Shown here piece by piece: positions 26,520 through 42,447 of a DNA stretch of 64,000 nt. This DNA comes from Mangrovimonas yunxiaonensis. GTDB lineage: Bacteria > Bacteroidota > Bacteroidia > Flavobacteriales > Flavobacteriaceae. The DNA lies in the NCBI RefSeq assembly GCF_000733475.1, contig NZ_JPFK01000002.1, positions 1-64,000 on the forward strand, read 5' to 3'. A model generated the notes under the pieces. That model searched no databases, was not told the DNA's origin, and saw nothing but the letters and a program-made list of their open reading frames with translations. Numbering within the stretch: the stretch's first letter is position 1; each line of letters begins with the position of its first letter. Made by a program: the position numbers and the translations under genes.

Positions 26520-27065
26520 TTAAAAACTAAACATGGCTCCTACACTTAAAATGCCAAAATTCCAATTAACACTTCTGCTATAGTAACCATAACTATTGTA
26601 GTATACATCATCGTAACTAGACCTTACCCCTCTGTATGAGGCGTTCAACTGAATTTTTTCGTTAATGTTATAGCCAAACATGGGACGGTAGTAAACTCCG
26701 CCATCATTACCATCGTTAATGCCCACGGCATACCCTAAATCCAGTCCTACCGTAAACATCTCGTTAATATAAAAGCGCCCGGCACCTGCTATGGGTACAA
26801 ATTGCACATCGTCATAATCGAGGTCTACCCCATAATACGTTCTGGTTTCTCCAAAAGAATGCGAAAACCCTAATGCTGGCCCAGCACTAAATTTTTCGCC
26901 AATAGCAAATTGATACGTTGCATCGACCCCTAAAGAAAACGTCGCAAAATCGCTGCCATCGGCCATGGGCAATCCAATAAACGCTCCTACACTAAACCCT
27001 TCTTGTGCCCTTACGCCGTAAACAGCAGTTAATACAACAACCCATGCTAATAAAATGTTTTTCAT
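26520..27065 (-). CDS. Small outer-membrane beta-barrel protein, paralogue A
   Basis: 181 residues with a signal peptide (1-20, YGVRAQ) and about eight amphipathic strands ending in FGILSVGAMFSF, whose terminal Phe is typical of outer-membrane barrels. It resembles OmpX/OmpA-barrel-type proteins of Bacteroidota. The C-terminal half is almost identical to the neighbour at 27225-27758, so the pair arose by duplication. Function is not known. Each copy has its own terminator. Confidence 0.82.
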   Translation of the reverse strand: MKNILLAWVVVLTAVYGVRAQEGFSVGAFIGLPMADGSDFATFSLGVDATYQFAIGEKFSAGPALGFSHSFGETRTYYGVDLDYDDVQFVPIAGAGRFYINEMFTVGLDLGYAVGINDGNDGGVYYRPMFGYNINEKIQLNASYRGVRSSYDDVYYNSYGYYSRSVNWNFGILSVGAMFSF

Positions 27066-36670: not shown

Positions 36671-37819
36671 TTAGCTCGCAACAAATTCTTTTAAAACCGC
36701 TACAACGTAATCTATTTCTTCTTTCGTATTGAATTTGCTAAACGAAAAACGAATAGAGGGTTTTTGCTTGTCTTCTTCTGAAAGGATATGGTCTAAAACA
36801 TGCGACCCCTTGCCGCTACCACTTTGGCAAGCGCTTCCTTTAGAACATGCTATGCCCTTTAAATCTAACTGAAACGGTAAGGTTAAAGCTTTTTCTGGCG
36901 ACATGGGCAAACAGGCGTTAATTAACGTATAGGTGCTTTTAGTATTGTCGTGGCAATTGCCGTTAAATTTCACCGCTGGTATTGCAGCTTCTAGTTGCGA
37001 TTTAAAATAATCTTTTAAACCTTGAACATAGGTGCGTTCCTCGTTTAAGTTATCGTAAGCCAGTTTAAACGCCGTCTCTAATCCTTTTATATTATGAACC
37101 GACTCGGTACCGGCACGGTAACCGCGTTCTTGTGCGCCTCCAAAAATTAGCGGTTTAAGGTTGCTGTCTTTTCTTATGTAGGCAAAACCTACCCCTTTCG
37201 GGCCATGAAACTTATGAGCAGCTGCCGTCATAAAATCAATAGGAATTTGTTGCACGTCCCACTCATAATGTCCTATAGACTGTACAGTATCGCTATGAAA
37301 CAAAGCGTTGTGTGCCTTGCAAAGCGCTGCAACGTGCTGGATGTCTAAAATGTTACCTACTTCGTTATTAACATGCATTAAACTCACCAATTTTTTATCG
37401 TTGTTTTCAGCAAGCAATTGCTCTAGATGGTCGTAATCTGGCGTGCCACATGCCTGAAGCTTAACATACGCCACACGAATGCCGTATTCACTTTTTAGTT
37501 CTTCTACAGTATGTAAAACCGCATGGTGTTCTATAGCCGACGTAATGATTGTTTTTACATCACCATCGCGTACGGCACAACGCAATATCATGTTATCGGC
37601 CTCTGTACCACCAGACGTAAAAATAATTTCCTGCGGTAAGGCATTTAAATATTTGGCTATGGTTTTTCTGGTTGTTTCTACAATAGTCTTAGATGCGCGC
37701 CCAAAAGCATGGGTAGATGACGGATTGCCATAGCTATGGCTTAAAACATCTTGAATGTCGTTTATCACTTCTTCCCTTACCTGGGTAGTTGCAGCACTAT
37801 CTAAGTATACAGACTTCAT
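36671..37819 (-). CDS. Cysteine desulfurase (NifS/IscS family)
   Basis: A 382-residue PLP enzyme that removes sulfur from cysteine for Fe-S cluster or tRNA thiolation use. The PLP lysine is Lys203 in AAHKFHGPKG, the catalytic Cys331 is in SKGSACQSG, and TSGGTEADN binds the cofactor phosphate. The N-terminus MKSVYLDSAATT is typical of the NifS/IscS class. No isc or suf scaffold genes are next to it, so the specific acceptor is unclear, and I leave the symbol blank. Confidence 0.93.
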   Translation of the reverse strand: MKSVYLDSAATTQVREEVINDIQDVLSHSYGNPSSTHAFGRASKTIVETTRKTIAKYLNALPQEIIFTSGGTEADNMILRCAVRDGDVKTIITSAIEHHAVLHTVEELKSEYGIRVAYVKLQACGTPDYDHLEQLLAENNDKKLVSLMHVNNEVGNILDIQHVAALCKAHNALFHSDTVQSIGHYEWDVQQIPIDFMTAAAHKFHGPKGVGFAYIRKDSNLKPLIFGGAQERGYRAGTESVHNIKGLETAFKLAYDNLNEERTYVQGLKDYFKSQLEAAIPAVKFNGNCHDNTKSTYTLINACLPMSPEKALTLPFQLDLKGIACSKGSACQSGSGKGSHVLDHILSEEDKQKPSIRFSFSKFNTKEEIDYVVAVLKEFVAS

Positions 37820-37855
37820 AAACTGAATATTTATAAGGTTTTGTTAATTGTGGCA

Positions 37856-37863
37856 CAAAAATA
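37856..37863 (-). promoter_or_regulatory. TAnnTTTG -7 element of the cysteine desulfurase gene
   Basis: TATTTTTG on the minus strand, 36 bases before the start codon. Confidence 0.55.
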
Positions 37864-37916
37864 TTCAAATAAAATTATTTACTGGGGACAACATTCCTAT
37901 ATTTAACAATATCTTT

Positions 37917-37924
37917 TATTTTTG
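37917..37924 (+). promoter_or_regulatory. TAnnTTTG -7 element of the Asp-rich lipoprotein gene
   Basis: TATTTTTG on the plus strand, 20 bases before the ATG at 37945. It faces away from the element at 37856-37863, so the two genes share a compact divergent promoter region. Confidence 0.6.
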
Positions 37925-37944
37925 TCCCTATTAAAGAAAATGCT

Positions 37945-38916
37945 ATGCGAAAATATGTCTTGCTTTTTGGTTTATTAACCAGTTTTTTGTCTTGTGATGA
38001 TGGTGATGTTTTTACAGTTTCGTTAGATTTTGACGATACCTTTAACATCTGTGGCGATGTTGTTTTCTACAAAACAAAATCTGACCCCAACGAGTCACTT
38101 TCGCTAAAAGTAACCAGTCCTATTAATTCTTTAGAAGACATTATAGCAACAGAACCTATTGTTGATGGCGACCTTACCTTAGTGCAGCTGGTAAACCCAG
38201 AAATTACAGGTACCATAAACGGCTCGAGCAATGCCTTTAATTACAGAACCTATAATTCGGCCGTTGGAAACAATGCTTTTTGTAGCGATGTACCACCTTC
38301 TAATCTAAACATTGCCGAAGACTACTCGAGTACAAGTGGCACCTTTACCATTACAACAACACTAATTGAAGACGATAATGATGGAATTCCAGCCGAAATG
38401 GAAGACCGAAACGGAAATGGCGATTTAAACGACGACGATACCGATGGCGATGGCATACCAAACTACTTGGATGAAGATGACGATGGCGATAACGTTTTAA
38501 CAAAAACCGAGCTTATCGACTCTGATTTGGTAGACAGCAACAACGATGGCGATAATGACGATGATACAGACAACGACCCACTAACCAACCCTGTTGATAC
38601 CGATGACGATGGCGTACCAAACTATTTGGACAATGACGATGATGGCGATGGGATACTAACCATAAACGAAGAAAACCAAACCCAAAACCAAAATCCGGCC
38701 AACGATTTTACCAATCCCAATGTGGCCGACTACCTTAACCCAGATGTAAGTACCGAGGTTCTAGCAACCGAATACCGCACGCATGAAATAAAACAGGTAT
38801 TTGTTATCGACATCTTTATTGAAAATATTTCGTTTTCTAACTTAAACCAAAGCACCTTCGATTTTGGTACTAAGGAAATCTCTACCGAAAGCAGGGATTT
38901 TACCCCAGAGTTTTAG
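37945..38916 (+). CDS. Lipoprotein with Asp-rich (thrombospondin type 3-like) calcium-binding repeats
   Basis: 323 residues: lipoprotein signal (LTSFLSC, Cys17), a beta-rich N-terminal domain with two Cys, and from about residue 147 a chain of Asp-rich loops such as DTDGDGIPNYLDEDDDGD and DTDDDGVPNYLDNDDDGDG. These loops follow the DxDxDG pattern of TSP3/EF-hand-like calcium sites found in many flavobacterial surface proteins. The C-terminus has no T9SS sorting domain. Its 3' end overlaps the convergent Smr gene by four bases. Specific function unknown. Confidence 0.82.
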   Translation: MRKYVLLFGLLTSFLSCDDGDVFTVSLDFDDTFNICGDVVFYKTKSDPNESLSLKVTSPINSLEDIIATEPIVDGDLTLVQLVNPEITGTINGSSNAFNYRTYNSAVGNNAFCSDVPPSNLNIAEDYSSTSGTFTITTTLIEDDNDGIPAEMEDRNGNGDLNDDDTDGDGIPNYLDEDDDGDNVLTKTELIDSDLVDSNNDGDNDDDTDNDPLTNPVDTDDDGVPNYLDNDDDGDGILTINEENQTQNQNPANDFTNPNVADYLNPDVSTEVLATEYRTHEIKQVFVIDIFIENISFSNLNQSTFDFGTKEISTESRDFTPEF

Positions 38917-39467
38917 TTGGAATCGGGCGTTGCATTCTGGTAGATATACACCTCGGTAGCACCCAAACCGTACTTTTTATAATCGGCATCGTAATATTTT
39001 ACGTTATACCTACCAAACAAGTATTCCAGTTCCATTTTTAGAACGCCTTCGCCAACACCATGAATAAACACCATTTTCTGGAACCGTTTTCTAATGGCAA
39101 ATTCCAATTGCCGTCTGGCCGTATCAACCTGTAAAGTTAACATGTCGTGGTTAGTCATACGTCCTGGGGTGTCGGTAAGCTGGTGAATGTGTAAATCGAC
39201 TTCAAAAGTTGGTTGGTATTTATCTTTGGCTTTTTTCTTTTGAGATTGTTGGCGCCTTTTGGGCAATTGTTTCTCTTTTAGAGCCTCTACACTTGGGGCG
39301 ACTTCCGAAGTATTAATCGCATCATCAATAACCACCAATTCATTTTCTGCAAACTCCAAATCAAAGCCATCGCAGCAAACAACAACTTTTCCGGCTTTTA
39401 CCGAAACAACCGTGCCCGTTAAATCCTCATCTAAAACCGATACCGTTTGCCCTACTTTAATTTCCAT
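38913..39467 (-). CDS. Smr-domain protein (MutS2 C-terminal-like)
   Basis: 184 residues: an N-terminal SH3/KOW-like beta segment (VGQTVSVLDEDLTGTVVSV), a basic linker (PKRRQQSQKKKAK) and a C-terminal Smr domain with VDLHIHQL and IHGVGEGVLKMEL. Smr domains nick or bind DNA or RNA; standalone forms in other bacteria rescue collided ribosomes. Here the acidic-basic layout matches DUF2027-type proteins. It is 3 bases downstream of the small membrane protein gene at 39471, so the two are probably cotranscribed. Confidence 0.85.
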   Translation of the reverse strand: MEIKVGQTVSVLDEDLTGTVVSVKAGKVVVCCDGFDLEFAENELVVIDDAINTSEVAPSVEALKEKQLPKRRQQSQKKKAKDKYQPTFEVDLHIHQLTDTPGRMTNHDMLTLQVDTARRQLEFAIRKRFQKMVFIHGVGEGVLKMELEYLFGRYNVKYYDADYKKYGLGATEVYIYQNATPDSN

Positions 39468-39470
39468 AAG

Positions 39471-39659
39471 CTAGTTTTCGTGATGCTCTTCTTCAGATTT
39501 ACTCGGAATTGATCGTGAAATACGATAAACCCCTAACATTAAACAAAACAGCCCTAAAATTAATATGGTTGTGTCTTGTTTTTCATCGGCTTGCGCATAT
39601 ATGGCTACTACTGCGCCAATTATAACAAGAAGATAATTTATAATTTTATTAAATTTCAT
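39471..39659 (-). CDS. Small two-helix membrane protein
   Basis: 62 residues from the ATG at 39659. Two hydrophobic segments (IINYLLVIIGAVVAIYA and ILILGLFCLMLGVYRI) are separated by a short charged loop, and the tail is acidic with two His. It is a hypothetical inner-membrane protein. It is the first gene of the transcript with the Smr gene, and a promoter-like element lies at 39687-39694. Confidence 0.7.
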   Translation of the reverse strand: MKFNKIINYLLVIIGAVVAIYAQADEKQDTTILILGLFCLMLGVYRISRSIPSKSEEEHHEN

Positions 39660-39686
39660 TTTGAGTGTACTTAGGCATTGAAATAA

Positions 39687-39694
39687 CAAAAATA
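39687..39694 (-). promoter_or_regulatory. TAnnTTTG -7 element of the small membrane/Smr operon
   Basis: TATTTTTG on the minus strand, 27 bases before the start codon at 39659. Confidence 0.5.
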
Positions 39695-39755
39695 CGTTTA
39701 ATTACATTCTATTTCCATTAAAATTAATTAGTACTTTAGTCCAAAACAAAAAAAG

Positions 39756-40043
39756 ATGGCGCTTGGAGCGGAAAATTTTATGCTACCTTGCTTAAACAAA
39801 CAAATTTTAGGGTTTGATTGTATGGGCTGTGGCATTCAACGAGCTTTTGTTCTCTTGGCCAATGGCGAGTTTTTAGCAGCGTTTAAAATGTACCCTGCCA
39901 TTTACACCTTAATGGCTTTAGCTTTGTTTATTGGTCTTAATTTTTTCTTTAACTTCAAACATTCAAATAAAATTATTAACCTGCTTGCCATACTATCGGT
40001 TGTTACCATCGTGGTAAGCTTTTTTATTAAAACTGTGAATTAA
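39756..40043 (+). CDS. DUF2752 membrane protein (first copy)
   Basis: 95 residues with the DUF2752 Cys signature C-x9-C-x2-C-G-x-Q-R (PCLNKQILGFDCMGCGIQR), then two hydrophobic helices (YPAIYTLMALALFIGLNFFF and IINLLAILSVVTIVVSFF). Three Cys in a fixed pattern suggest metal or redox chemistry at the membrane surface. It is the first of four tiny membrane genes read in one direction. The function of DUF2752 is not known to me. Confidence 0.87.
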   Translation: MALGAENFMLPCLNKQILGFDCMGCGIQRAFVLLANGEFLAAFKMYPAIYTLMALALFIGLNFFFNFKHSNKIINLLAILSVVTIVVSFFIKTVN

Positions 40044-40048
40044 ATATT

Positions 40049-40381
40049 ATGGAACAACAAAAACTCAACCCTACCCTTGTTTATGTCTTGTCTATTCTTG
40101 GTTTACTTTGCTGCTGCTTTGGTGGCTTAGGATTTATCTTGGCAGGAATTGCCTTTTTTGTAGCTAAAAGCAATTTAAAAAAGGCTCAGCTAGCCCCCGA
40201 GAGTTACGACCCCGGAAGTGTTAAAGCTATGAACACCGCTAAAATTGTGGCTCTTATTATTTTAGCCATTAACGTGCTGTACTTTGTGGCTACTATTTAT
40301 AGAATAGCTACTGTTGGCTGGGATGAGATTATGGAGCAATCGCAACAGATGATGGAGCAATGGCAACAACAGAGCAATTAA
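40049..40381 (+). CDS. CCC-motif small membrane protein
   Basis: 110 residues with two hydrophobic helices. The first holds the CCC motif (ILGLLCCCFGGLGFILAGIA), followed by AKSNLKKAQ, a short polar loop, AKIVALIILAINVLYFVA, and a Gln-rich acidic tail. The spacing of CC, Lys-x-Asn and the second helix resembles the CD225/dispanin protein encoded next, so I infer the two are distant relatives. It is 5 bases after the DUF2752 gene. Confidence 0.85.
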   Translation: MEQQKLNPTLVYVLSILGLLCCCFGGLGFILAGIAFFVAKSNLKKAQLAPESYDPGSVKAMNTAKIVALIILAINVLYFVATIYRIATVGWDEIMEQSQQMMEQWQQQSN

Positions 40382-40463
40382 TCTCCTCCTTATATCATTT
40401 AAAAGTGGCTTAAACAGTCACTTTTTTATTATTTTTGGATAAATTTTTTATACGCTATAACCT

Positions 40464-40742
40464 ATGGAAATTAAACCAACCAGACCAAACAGTTACTTAG
40501 CACTTGCAATTATTAGCACCATTTTATGTTGCTTACCCGCAGGTATTGTAAGTATTATTTACGCCACAAAAGTAAACACCCTTTACGAAGACGGAAAATA
40601 TGATGAAGCCGAAAAAGCCTCGAAAAATGCCAAAACATGGGGCATTGTATCTATTGCACTAGCCGTACTAATATATGTGGTGGTGTTTGCTATTTATGGT
40701 CTTGCAATTTTTGCAGCATTAGCAAATGGTGGTGATTTTTAA
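40464..40742 (+). CDS. CD225/dispanin family membrane protein
   Basis: 92 residues: PNSYLALAIISTILCCLPAG (first helix with the Cys-Cys pair), IVSIIYATKVNTLYEDGKYDEAEKAS (re-entrant segment and loop), and KTWGIVSIALAVLIYVVVFAIYG (second helix). This is the CD225 fold shared with eukaryotic IFITM proteins. The bacterial role is undescribed as far as I know. Its last 17 bases overlap the start of the next DUF2752 gene, which argues for translational coupling. Confidence 0.88.
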   Translation: MEIKPTRPNSYLALAIISTILCCLPAGIVSIIYATKVNTLYEDGKYDEAEKASKNAKTWGIVSIALAVLIYVVVFAIYGLAIFAALANGGDF

Positions 40743-41139
40743 ACTTCGGTTTTTTATATACCTTATTATAGCGATACTGCTTATTGGCGCAGTATCGCTA
40801 TATTTTTTAATTAATCCTGCCGAGGCAAACATCTTTCCGCCTTGTCCGTTTCACACCGTAACAGGACTTTACTGCCCGGGTTGTGGTAGCCAAAGGGCCA
40901 TACACGACATTTTAAATGGTAATTTGCTACAAGGCTTTGGCCACAACTATTTGTTTTTGCTCTTGTTTTTTGTGCTGGGCTATGAGGCCTTAACCTGGAT
41001 ACGGGCCAAATGCTTTAACAAAACAACCTACAACCTTATAAACACTTCAAAATTTACCATAGCGGTGCTGGTTGTTGTACTTGTATTCTGGTGTTTAAGA
41101 AACCTCCCCTTCTACCCGTTTACCATGTTAGCACCATAA
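40726..41139 (+). CDS. DUF2752 membrane protein (second copy)
   Basis: 137 residues starting at the ATG inside the dispanin gene. A first helix (FFIYLIIAILLIGAVSLYFL) precedes the signature CPFHTVTGLYCPGCGSQR, again C-x9-C-x2-C-G-x-Q-R, and two more helices follow. It is a diverged paralogue of the protein at 39756. The operon ends at the hairpin 41138-41175. Confidence 0.87.
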   Translation: MVVIFKLRFFIYLIIAILLIGAVSLYFLINPAEANIFPPCPFHTVTGLYCPGCGSQRAIHDILNGNLLQGFGHNYLFLLLFFVLGYEALTWIRAKCFNKTTYNLINTSKFTIAVLVVVLVFWCLRNLPFYPFTMLAP

Positions 41140-41175
41140 AAAAATGTGACCAGCTTTAACACCGATCACATTTTC
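41138..41175. terminator. Bidirectional terminator between DUF2752 cluster and rocD
   Basis: AAATGTGA (41142-41149) pairs with TCACATTT (41166-41173). A runs and T runs flank both sides, and it lies between two convergent stop codons. Confidence 0.75.
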
Positions 41176-41202
41176 TATAACGATATAAAAACGTTGGTTA
41201 GT

Positions 41203-42447
41203 TTACTTCTCGAATGCTTTTAACGTTTTAATAATTATAGACACACAGTCCAATAACTGCGCTTTATCCATAACTAAAGGTGGTGCAAAACGAATGATGT
41301 TACCATGAGTTGGCTTAGCCAACAAACCATTATCACGAAGGGCCAAACAAATGTTCCAAGCGGTTTCGCTTTCTTCGTCATCGTTTATAACAATGGCGTT
41401 CAATAAGCCTTTACCTCTTACAAGCTTAACAATATTACTTTCGGCTATATAATTGTTTATCTCTGCTCTAAAAAGTTGTCCTAAAGTTTCGGCGTTGTCG
41501 GCTAGGTTTTCCTCTTTTACGACGTCTAACGCAGCCATGGCTACAGCGGCGGCAACAGGGTTCCCTCCAAATGTGCTCCCGTGACTTCCAGGAGTTATAA
41601 CGTCCATAATATCATCATTTGCCAGTACGGCACTTACAGGGTAAGCTCCACCACTTAGGGCCTTTCCTAAAATTAAGATGTTAGGCTTTACATTTTCATG
41701 ATCGCAAGCCAAAAGTTTTCCTGTTCTAGCAATTCCTGTTTGTACCTCATCGGCTATAAACAGCACATTATACTTTTCGCAAAGGGCTTTGGCTTTTTGC
41801 AAATAACCTTCGGTTGGCACATAAACACCAGCCTCTCCCTGAATGGGCTCTACTAAAAACCCAGCTACATTAGGATTGTTTTTTAAGGCCGCTTCTAAAG
41901 CTTCTAAATTGTTATAATCAATTTTAATAAATCCTTGGGTGTATGGGCCAAAGTTTTTTCTGGCTACGGGATCGTTAGAGAACGAAATGATGGTTGTCGT
42001 TCTTCCATGGAAATTGTTTTCGCAAACAATAATTTCGGCTTGATTTTCATCAATACCTTTTTCTTGGTAAGCCCAGCGTCTACAAATCTTTAAAGCAGTT
42101 TCTACAGCTTCGGCTCCTGTGTTCATGGGTAGCAGTTTATCAAACCCAAAATATGTTGTTGCATATTTTTCAAATCGTCCCAACATATCGTTGTAAAACG
42201 CTCTAGAAGTTAAGGTAAGGGTTTGTGCCTGTGTGGTCATCGCCTCAACAATCTTAGGGTGACAATGCCCTTGGTTTACGGCAGAATAAGCCGATAAGAA
42301 ATCGTAATATTGTTTGCCTTCTACATCCCAAACATATACGCCTTTACCTTTGCTTAAAACCACAGGTAGTGGGTGGTAATTGTGTGCGCCATATTTGTTT
42401 TCTAAATCCATCGCCTGCTGCGATGACAATTGGTCTAAAACAGCCAT
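41203..42447 (-). CDS. rocD: Ornithine--oxo-acid (delta) aminotransferase
   Basis: A 414-residue class III PLP aminotransferase that converts ornithine to glutamate semialdehyde in arginine and ornithine breakdown. NTGAEAVETALKICRRWAY, FHGRTTTIISFSNDP, IADEVQTGIARTGK and the PLP lysine in ILGKALSGGAYPVSAV are all conserved. The family-specific N-terminus ENKYGAHNYHPLPVVLSKG supports ornithine over acetylornithine aminotransferase. It is monocistronic. Confidence 0.93.
   Translation of the reverse strand: MAVLDQLSSQQAMDLENKYGAHNYHPLPVVLSKGKGVYVWDVEGKQYYDFLSAYSAVNQGHCHPKIVEAMTTQAQTLTLTSRAFYNDMLGRFEKYATTYFGFDKLLPMNTGAEAVETALKICRRWAYQEKGIDENQAEIIVCENNFHGRTTTIISFSNDPVARKNFGPYTQGFIKIDYNNLEALEAALKNNPNVAGFLVEPIQGEAGVYVPTEGYLQKAKALCEKYNVLFIADEVQTGIARTGKLLACDHENVKPNILILGKALSGGAYPVSAVLANDDIMDVITPGSHGSTFGGNPVAAAVAMAALDVVKEENLADNAETLGQLFRAEINNYIAESNIVKLVRGKGLLNAIVINDDEESETAWNICLALRDNGLLAKPTHGNIIRFAPPLVMDKAQLLDCVSIIIKTLKAFEK

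Follow-up and report, generated by a model that had tools for sequence, protein, structure and literature searches.

DUF2752 proteins recur as genomic partners of small CD225-, CCC- and TM2-type membrane proteins in several bacterial phyla

In a 64,000-nucleotide stretch of Mangrovimonas yunxiaonensis DNA (contig NZ_JPFK01000002.1, positions 1 to 64,000, referred to as the window herein), four tiny membrane protein genes follow one another at positions 39756-41139, which raises the question of whether their products belong to a single assembly and what such proteins might do. The original prediction, made from the DNA sequence, read the genes as DUF2752, a CCC motif protein, CD225/dispanin and a second DUF2752, and the open reading frames (ORFs) and profile scores bear this out. 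The overlap that it described between the last two genes was confirmed and amounts to 17 nucleotides (nt), and the pattern C-x9-C-x2-C-G-x-Q-R can be read straight off the sequence of both DUF2752 copies. All four proteins scored above the curated cut-offs of their profiles, which are 27 bits for PF10825 (matched by both DUF2752 copies), 27.1 bits for PF04505 and 65 bits for NF040945. The features of the locus are as follows.

39756..40043, plus strand: DUF2752a, 95 residues, a short form lacking the helix ahead of the motif; gene 1 of unit 1 (PF10825, 59.4 bits)
40049..40381, plus strand: CCC motif membrane protein, 110 residues; second gene of unit 1 (NF040945, 120.8 bits)
40401..40425, plus strand: intrinsic-terminator-like hairpin and U-run that ends unit 1, between CCC and CD225
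40464..40742, plus strand: CD225/dispanin, 92 residues; first gene of unit 2 (PF04505, 88.2 bits)
40726..41139, plus strand: DUF2752b, 137 residues, a long form that has this helix; gene 2 of unit 2 (PF10825, 63.7 bits)
40767..40812, plus strand: embedded hairpin and U-run, stem at 40767-40802 with 14 pairs, in the first-helix codons of DUF2752b; candidate terminator/attenuator

DUF2752a and CCC are separated by 5 nt, and CCC and CD225 by 82 nt. This locus accounts for every match in the genome to DUF2752 (two) and to CD225 (one). The cluster is two separate two-gene units, DUF2752a-CCC and CD225-DUF2752b, and not one, because a terminator-like hairpin lies between them, the units stand apart or convergent in other genomes and their DUF2752 genes come from different lineages. 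The inter-unit hairpin consists of a 10-pair stem followed by TTATTATTTT, and the 62 nt around it fold at -13 kcal/mol (z-score -4.0). By eye, a similar hairpin and U-run could be found between the units in G001 and G031, and just a short hairpin-like stretch with a U-run in G029 (G numbers denote sampled genomes and L numbers fetched loci). Among 60 genomes of relatives, with that of the window included, DUF2752 was present in 40 (51 genes), a CCC match at an E-value of 0.001 in 34 (32 over the cut-off) and CD225 in 12. The four genes were collinear in five of the 60 (G000, G001, G002, G029 and G031). Both units, with CCC and CD225 over their cut-offs, occurred in ten; in four of these the units were split (by ∼97 kb in G010, by ∼3.5 kb in G024 and onto different contigs in G015 and G030), and in one, G013, they lay side by side but convergent. 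The congener G003 carries unit 1 alone. Taken together, the split genomes and G003 imply that each unit persists without the other beside it, and with a hairpin between the units and so few collinear genomes the locus does not read, judged from its sequence, as one continuous four-gene unit.

What recurs is the pairing within each unit. In the relatives, 43 of the 51 DUF2752 genes have CCC or CD225 no more than 1.5 kb away, where a generous estimate gives ∼0.07 expected, so that this adjacency is far beyond chance. Of the remaining eight, seven have as neighbor a TM2 gene that passes the Pfam cut-off, and one has a 55-residue protein that narrowly misses the BRI3 cut-off (25.3 versus 25.9 bits). 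Some loci were labeled with local hidden Markov models (HMMs) built from fetched sequences, and CCC was told apart from CD225 by score. In a second sample of 148 genomes of the window's own phylum, Bacteroidota, DUF2752 was found in 82 genomes (93 genes) and TM2 in 85 (101 genes), and 75 of the 93 DUF2752 genes have TM2 or CD225 (60) or else CCC (15) at a distance of up to 1 kb. The linkage of DUF2752 to the small proteins sandwiched at the locus, as originally proposed, is thus strongly supported, but as two pairs.

The same picture emerges from the side of the small partners. Of 23 CD225 genes over the cut-off, taken from two phyla, 21 stand immediately upstream of a DUF2752 gene and share its strand (11/12 in the relatives, 2/2 in further Bacteroidota genomes and 8/9 in Actinomycetota), and in all 21 adjacent cases CD225 precedes DUF2752. 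The spacing runs from -17 to +18 nt with one outlier among the 12 of 20 distinct pairs with a listable Met start. CCC lies near DUF2752 in 35 of 37 cases in the relatives and 17 of 19 in the own-phylum sample, two samples that overlap for CCC counts, and the gap from DUF2752a to CCC is typically 5-23 nt, with start codons being approximate. For TM2 (E-value up to 0.001), 56 of 101 genes are near DUF2752, 50 downstream and six upstream.

Beyond Bacteroidota, we sampled 100 genomes of Actinomycetota, the phylum of a Streptomyces record, and found DUF2752 in 27 of them (33 genes). The partner tally, which covers 30 of these 33 genes, comprises CD225 (8), DUF4234-like (8), RDD (5, one of which is only partly within its locus), TM2 (2), DUF6704-like HGxxPAAW (2) and unassigned (5) neighbors, with labels assigned by Pfam for some loci and by local HMMs or BLAST otherwise. 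A tenth Actinomycetota CD225 match, in G284, is below the cut-off and on a different contig from that genome's DUF2752. Individual records add the orders TM2-DUF2752-TM2 in Streptomyces cadmiisoli, as annotated, DUF4234-DUF2752 in a Spirochaetota record, a DUF4234-like gene before DUF2752 in a Paenibacillus record (by resemblance) and CD225-DUF2752 at one place in Nonomuraea gerenzanensis; in the last two records the genes are unannotated. Taken together, gene neighborhoods and profile matches show DUF2752 recurring in several phyla as a genomic partner of small membrane proteins with two hydrophobic segments (CD225, CCC, TM2, DUF4234 and others), often in tight or overlapping arrangement on one strand.

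Among other record types, we found five matches to DUF2752b and one to CD225 in 72,556 plasmid records, and no confirmed CD225 in viral contigs. The ornithine aminotransferase had its best plasmid match in Parabacteroides (61.8%). A PHROGs search gave just three weak matches (E-values of 0.0027-0.0087), function unknown. MT839860.1, labeled 'UNVERIFIED: Bacteriophage sp.' and derived from human faeces, carries CD225-DUF2752 (L206:3605-4462). The ORFs that follow the pair resemble what we take to be pyrimidine-biosynthesis genes, and because of this gene content we regard the record as a bacterial scaffold, probably a chromosome fragment and not a phage.

The motif C-x(7-13)-CxxCG was present in 119 of the 121 distinct DUF2752 ORFs collected, with a spacing of nine in 116 of the 119 and an Arg three residues past CG in 107 of the 119. 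C-x9-CxxCG is therefore a signature of the whole DUF2752 family and not of this locus. The two ORFs lacking the motif were excluded from the tree and from the topology counts. The tree of 119 domains and 66 columns leaves 54 of its 116 inner branches open. It places DUF2752a in a clade of 50 rows, 41 of them CCC-linked (support 98/92), and DUF2752b in a group of 29 rows, 18 of them CD225-linked, those from Actinomycetota included (support 93/77). Tandem duplication, considered as the source of the two copies, was rejected, as they fall in different clades. When partner labels were mapped onto the tree, we counted 24 changes as compared to 64.3 in shuffles, and on this domain tree partner type follows DUF2752 phylogeny. 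The helix before the motif is present in CD225-linked and TM2-linked DUF2752 and mostly absent in the CCC-linked type.

The small partners are partly related to one another. The NCBIfam CCC model matches the window's CD225 at an E-value of 3.6e-6, below its cut-off, and profile-profile comparison gave probabilities of 95.7% for CCC-CD225, 85.1% for CCC-DUF4190 and 69.5% for CD225-DUF4190. By these scores CCC and CD225 appear to be homologous, CCC and DUF4190 are probably so, and CD225 and DUF4190 possibly so. We found CC or CCC in 47 of 49 CCC sequences and CC in 16 of 20 CD225 sequences; the 19 TM2 partners have no cysteine pair, and 18 of them carry one or more cysteines in the stretch. The original prediction had seen matched cysteines and a shared Lys-x-Asn segment as a feature of the locus. 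The likeness holds for CCC and CD225 because the two appear to be homologous; as a locus-wide or unifying feature, matched cysteines were rejected, since TM2 partners lack the pair and the DUF2752 cysteines are a family signature. In an alignment of 15 CD225 sequences, C22, G44, A49 and A56 are invariant and C23 nearly so. The window's CD225 has CC in the first hydrophobic segment, the loop G and A-x6-A, and shares both a full PF04505 profile score and the motifs given in PMC3282796 with bacterial dispanins, to which the DUF2752 partner and the hairpin embedded in it are additions seen here. The window's CCC protein belongs with CCC/DUF4190 (NF040945/PF13828), which in the literature searched is a name without a function. 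TM2 proteins (PF05154) resemble these partners as two-transmembrane proteins adjoining DUF2752 and differ from them in having no match in the window's own genome.

We then considered where the DUF2752 motif might lie relative to the membrane. Lys and Arg per residue amount to 0.054-0.084 on the motif side and to 0.18-0.23 on the other side. Because of the low density on the motif side, C-x9-CxxCG is predicted on the outer face of the membrane, and a cytoplasmic location is predicted for the N-terminus of long-form DUF2752 and for the loop that follows the next helix; the charge distribution strongly suggests both. The AlphaFold2 model of DUF2752b has a mean predicted local distance difference test score (pLDDT) of 94.5 and a predicted template modeling score (pTM) of 0.78, with helices at 2-28, 41-46, 55-63, 67-73, 76-97, 108-125 and 132-135, and that of the L150 DUF2752 has a pLDDT of 82.2 and a pTM of 0.48. 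Fold searches with DUF2752 returned 34 matches, none at an E-value of 0.001 or less, with a best Z of 3.1 in a second look, and the DUF2752b model gave four matches in the Protein Data Bank with a best E-value of 7.2. A remote homologue among solved structures, represented by a single match at an E-value of 0.85 to a stretch of ribosomal protein, was rejected. This lack of a fold match does not show that DUF2752 has a new fold. A search of the genome contigs for relatives of DUF2752b found none. A degenerate DNA pattern for DUF2752 returned two records, one of which, L158, holds a real DUF2752; the matched place in the other, L157, is by eye not a DUF2752 gene, and that genome has DUF2752 elsewhere.

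The second gene of the CD225 unit carries a further feature. The hairpin embedded in DUF2752b has a stem of 14 pairs without a mismatch and, after it, a U-run; it lies 24 nt past the CD225 stop and folds at -23.8 kcal/mol (z-score -5.85). RNAfold gave strong equivalents in G001, G002, G031, G024 and G015 and looser ones in G013, G029 and G030. Across six genomes, changes on both sides were found in seven of the 14 pairs, with 94% of cells paired and slid registers reaching at most 53.6%. The comparison is tilted toward the hairpin, since half of the six rows come from close congeners and the window row itself supplied the structure. For instance, one stem pair reads C-G in three of the genomes, G-C in two others and U-A in the last, and in five of the six genomes synonymous serine codons (TCG, TCC and TCA) track the opposite codon (GCG, GGG and GTG). 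Covariation at the codon level strongly suggests selection on the RNA, as this is what such selection would be expected to look like.

We next scored the corresponding region in all DUF2752 rows, with the exception of 33 of the 119 that have fewer than 25 codons before the motif and are mostly of the short type. A score of at least 25, a threshold chosen after the scores were seen, was reached by six of 12 own-phylum CD225-linked DUF2752 genes, by one of 2691 control coding windows and by none of 409 control first windows; at a threshold of 16 the comparison is 6/12 versus 28/2691. Synonymous shuffles matched the observed score in 0-4 of 100 for these six genes. Elsewhere, scores of at least 25 were found in one of 12 rows with TM2 upstream and three of 24 other non-Actinomycetota rows (L104, L096 and L105), and in none of ten scorable CCC-linked rows or 28 Actinomycetota rows. 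Rfam had no family matches over 39400-41500. The sole control window scoring at least 25 lies on the minus strand at ∼26800-26940 (32.5), and terminator-like hairpins occur in the 5′ part of four DUF2752 genes with other partners (L096, L104, L105 and L106, in G126, G083, G164 and G061).

A stable GC-containing stem with a U-run, conserved with compensatory changes, gives the embedded hairpin the makings of an intrinsic terminator. It resembles known intrinsic terminators and attenuators in coding sequence in its stable hairpin and U-run, and is distinguished by lying in the 5′ part of the downstream member of a conserved gene pair and by its codon-level covariation. The structure and its conservation suggest that it may end some transcripts after CD225, in which case CD225 would outnumber DUF2752b. 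Roles in RNA stability or in coupling with translation are possible as well.

PMC3282796 describes bacterial dispanins in seven phyla, proposes a bacterial origin of the animal family and remarks that something other than palmitoylation may have to explain the conserved CC motif of the bacterial members. The words 'operon' and 'neighbo' are absent from the texts of both PMC3282796 and PMC4488726, and 'DUF' from that of PMC4488726. We found nothing on a role of CD225 relatives in bacteria in the literature searched, and the accessible portions of papers on Gardnerella stress and on fly TM2D genes hold nothing on bacterial function. No paper naming DUF2752 was found in the open-license literature searched, and among the matches listed from it none concerned this pairing by its title or the start of its abstract, although the pairing may be in print elsewhere. 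As far as we searched, then, the two-gene pairing is well supported and undescribed. With CD225 so consistently upstream of DUF2752, DUF2752 becomes a specific candidate partner and a first lead on the bacterial IFITM relatives. Since DUF2752 joins several uncharacterized families of small membrane proteins, one experiment could inform several DUFs. With a covarying hairpin placed in a gene that overlaps its neighbor, protein ratios would be set in a compact manner.

How the pairs might work is a further step, as physical contact and a role for the cysteines are things we infer from the well-supported pairing. The best explanation as a whole, which we hold to be an even call, is that small IFITM-like or TM2-like proteins have in DUF2752 a dedicated membrane partner, probably the scarcer of the two. 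The small partner would be the abundant, oligomerizing, membrane-embedded part, by analogy to IFITM; transcripts of CD225 could end at the hairpin inside DUF2752b and leave CD225 in excess; and DUF2752 would bind the small partner in the membrane and control its assembly or state, with the three-cysteine site as a putative metal-binding or thiol-reactive center. Membrane shaping of the IFITM type by CD225 would be suggested by analogy only. A broader version, which we put forward tentatively and would not expect to hold in full, joins DUF2752 and an interchangeable small partner (CD225, CCC/DUF4190, TM2, DUF4234 and others) into a widespread two-part membrane machine that would represent the ancestral setting of dispanins, with the outer three-cysteine site controlling assembly and the embedded terminator giving the partner a large excess. 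Such control of assembly would explain why bacterial dispanins retain the CC motif, given that no palmitoylation of it is known in bacteria.

Several observations weigh against the best explanation. In the own-phylum sample, 18 of the 93 DUF2752 genes lack TM2, CD225 and CCC alike within 1 kb. Ten of these have no obvious small partner; two adjoin a DUF4234-like gene (L121 by Pfam and L137 by resemblance), two a DUF7544-like gene (L142 by Pfam and L145 by resemblance), one DUF5684 and one a GYF_2+DUF805 protein, another, in G177, has DUF4870 and an M48 peptidase next to it where the contig ends, and the last, in G099, is a broken match within a frame of 75 residues. Conversely, 45 of the 101 TM2 genes are away from DUF2752, CD225 stands alone in G019:C10 (near a contig end) and G301:C8, and the 4.2 kb fetched around a second CD225 ORF in N. 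gerenzanensis (L207:1977-3380, NZ_LT559118.1), a place not counted among the 23 cases, hold no DUF2752. A single genus supplies four genomes (G079, G083, G126 and G198) that keep a short DUF2752 without an adjoining CCC and have no CCC match elsewhere either; therefore the partner is not obligatory there. No natural fusions of DUF2752 with CCC, CD225 or TM2 were found among the loci fetched at that stage, and the TM2 and DUF4234 partners have no homology to CD225 or CCC detectable by profile-profile comparison. The cysteine motif is broken in two of the 121 DUF2752 ORFs, of which L185 lacks all three cysteines, and Foldseek with the two AlphaFold2 models gave no confident match to a solved structure. 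The joint grouping of CD225-linked DUF2752 from the own phylum and Actinomycetota has moderate support (93/77), no embedded hairpin was seen in the eight Actinomycetota CD225 pairs, and the makeup of the covariation rows belongs on this side as well.

Other functions have to be weighed against the dedicated-partner explanation. DUF2752 could be a membrane thiol-disulfide enzyme that exchanges electrons with partner cysteines, for which the near-invariant C-x9-CxxCG on the predicted outer face and the CC or CCC of most CCC and CD225 sequences can be cited. The odd number of cysteines, the TM2 partners without a pair, a DUF2752 such as L185 with none of the three cysteines, and the placement of the CD225 and CCC cysteines within a hydrophobic segment make this unlikely. 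L185:36-644 itself is an Actinomycetota DUF2752-family ORF with all three motif cysteines replaced, and its contig ends beside the ORF.

The original prediction had also raised protection against phage or membrane stress, in which CD225 would act like IFITM against fusion or phage DNA entry. Mycobacterial IFITM relatives of the CD225 family do have moderate antiviral activity in human cells, restricting influenza virus, according to PMC4488726. None of the four proteins had a PADLOC match at an E-value up to 1. Two of seven scanned neighbors did match PADLOC, as SspA/DndA and as mads_2 (E-value 1.1e-19), but NCBIfam reads these two as a NifS-like cysteine desulfurase (below cut-offs) and RlmD. 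Within 36671-41202 of the window, the short DUF2752 is flanked by cysteine desulfurase, lipoprotein-like and Smr-like genes in several related genera, and this neighborhood is stable, unlike a mobile defense island. With DUF2752 further present in more than half of the own-phylum genomes (82/148), the protective role found no support here and we consider it quite unlikely.

A role in membrane-protein quality control, in which DUF2752 and its partner would present substrates to a membrane protease, strikes us as similarly improbable. DUF2752 is followed by DUF4870 and an M48 peptidase in six genomes (G019, G026, G061, G074, G172 and G177; labels by Pfam for G019 and by similarity for the other five), with TM2 first in five of them (G019, G026, G061, G074 and G172), but in the window and its nearest relatives no protease could be seen by eye next to the CD225 and CCC units. 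The loci with this order are L076 (G019), L078 (G026), L110 (G172), L114 (G074), L126 (G177) and L154 (G061), where TM2 comes first wherever the contig reaches.

The single four-protein, cysteine-rich membrane complex of the original prediction is very unlikely. Judged by the refutation that this prediction had set itself, the four genes seldom occurring together in other genomes, the quartet fails. The five collinear genomes speak for it; the rarity of that arrangement among the 60, the units separated in four genomes and convergent in a fifth, the terminator-like hairpin between CCC and CD225 and the different lineages of DUF2752a and DUF2752b speak for two independent pairs. Lastly, that adjacency is old gene order without functional meaning, as the conservation of much of the neighborhood, flanking genes included, among near relatives might be read, is extremely improbable, as the pairs recur in unrelated surroundings and in other phyla, often overlapping or nearly abutting.

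Two further arrangements were seen among the fetched loci. CCC-family proteins without DUF2752 nearby occur at L092:4784-5413 and L093:4998-5471 (G013:C4 and G022:C2), in a neighborhood common to two genera. In L147 and L148 (G182 and G190), DUF2752 is directly followed by a gene that by eye is SPFH/band-7-like, and the two loci's genes are 82% identical to each other.

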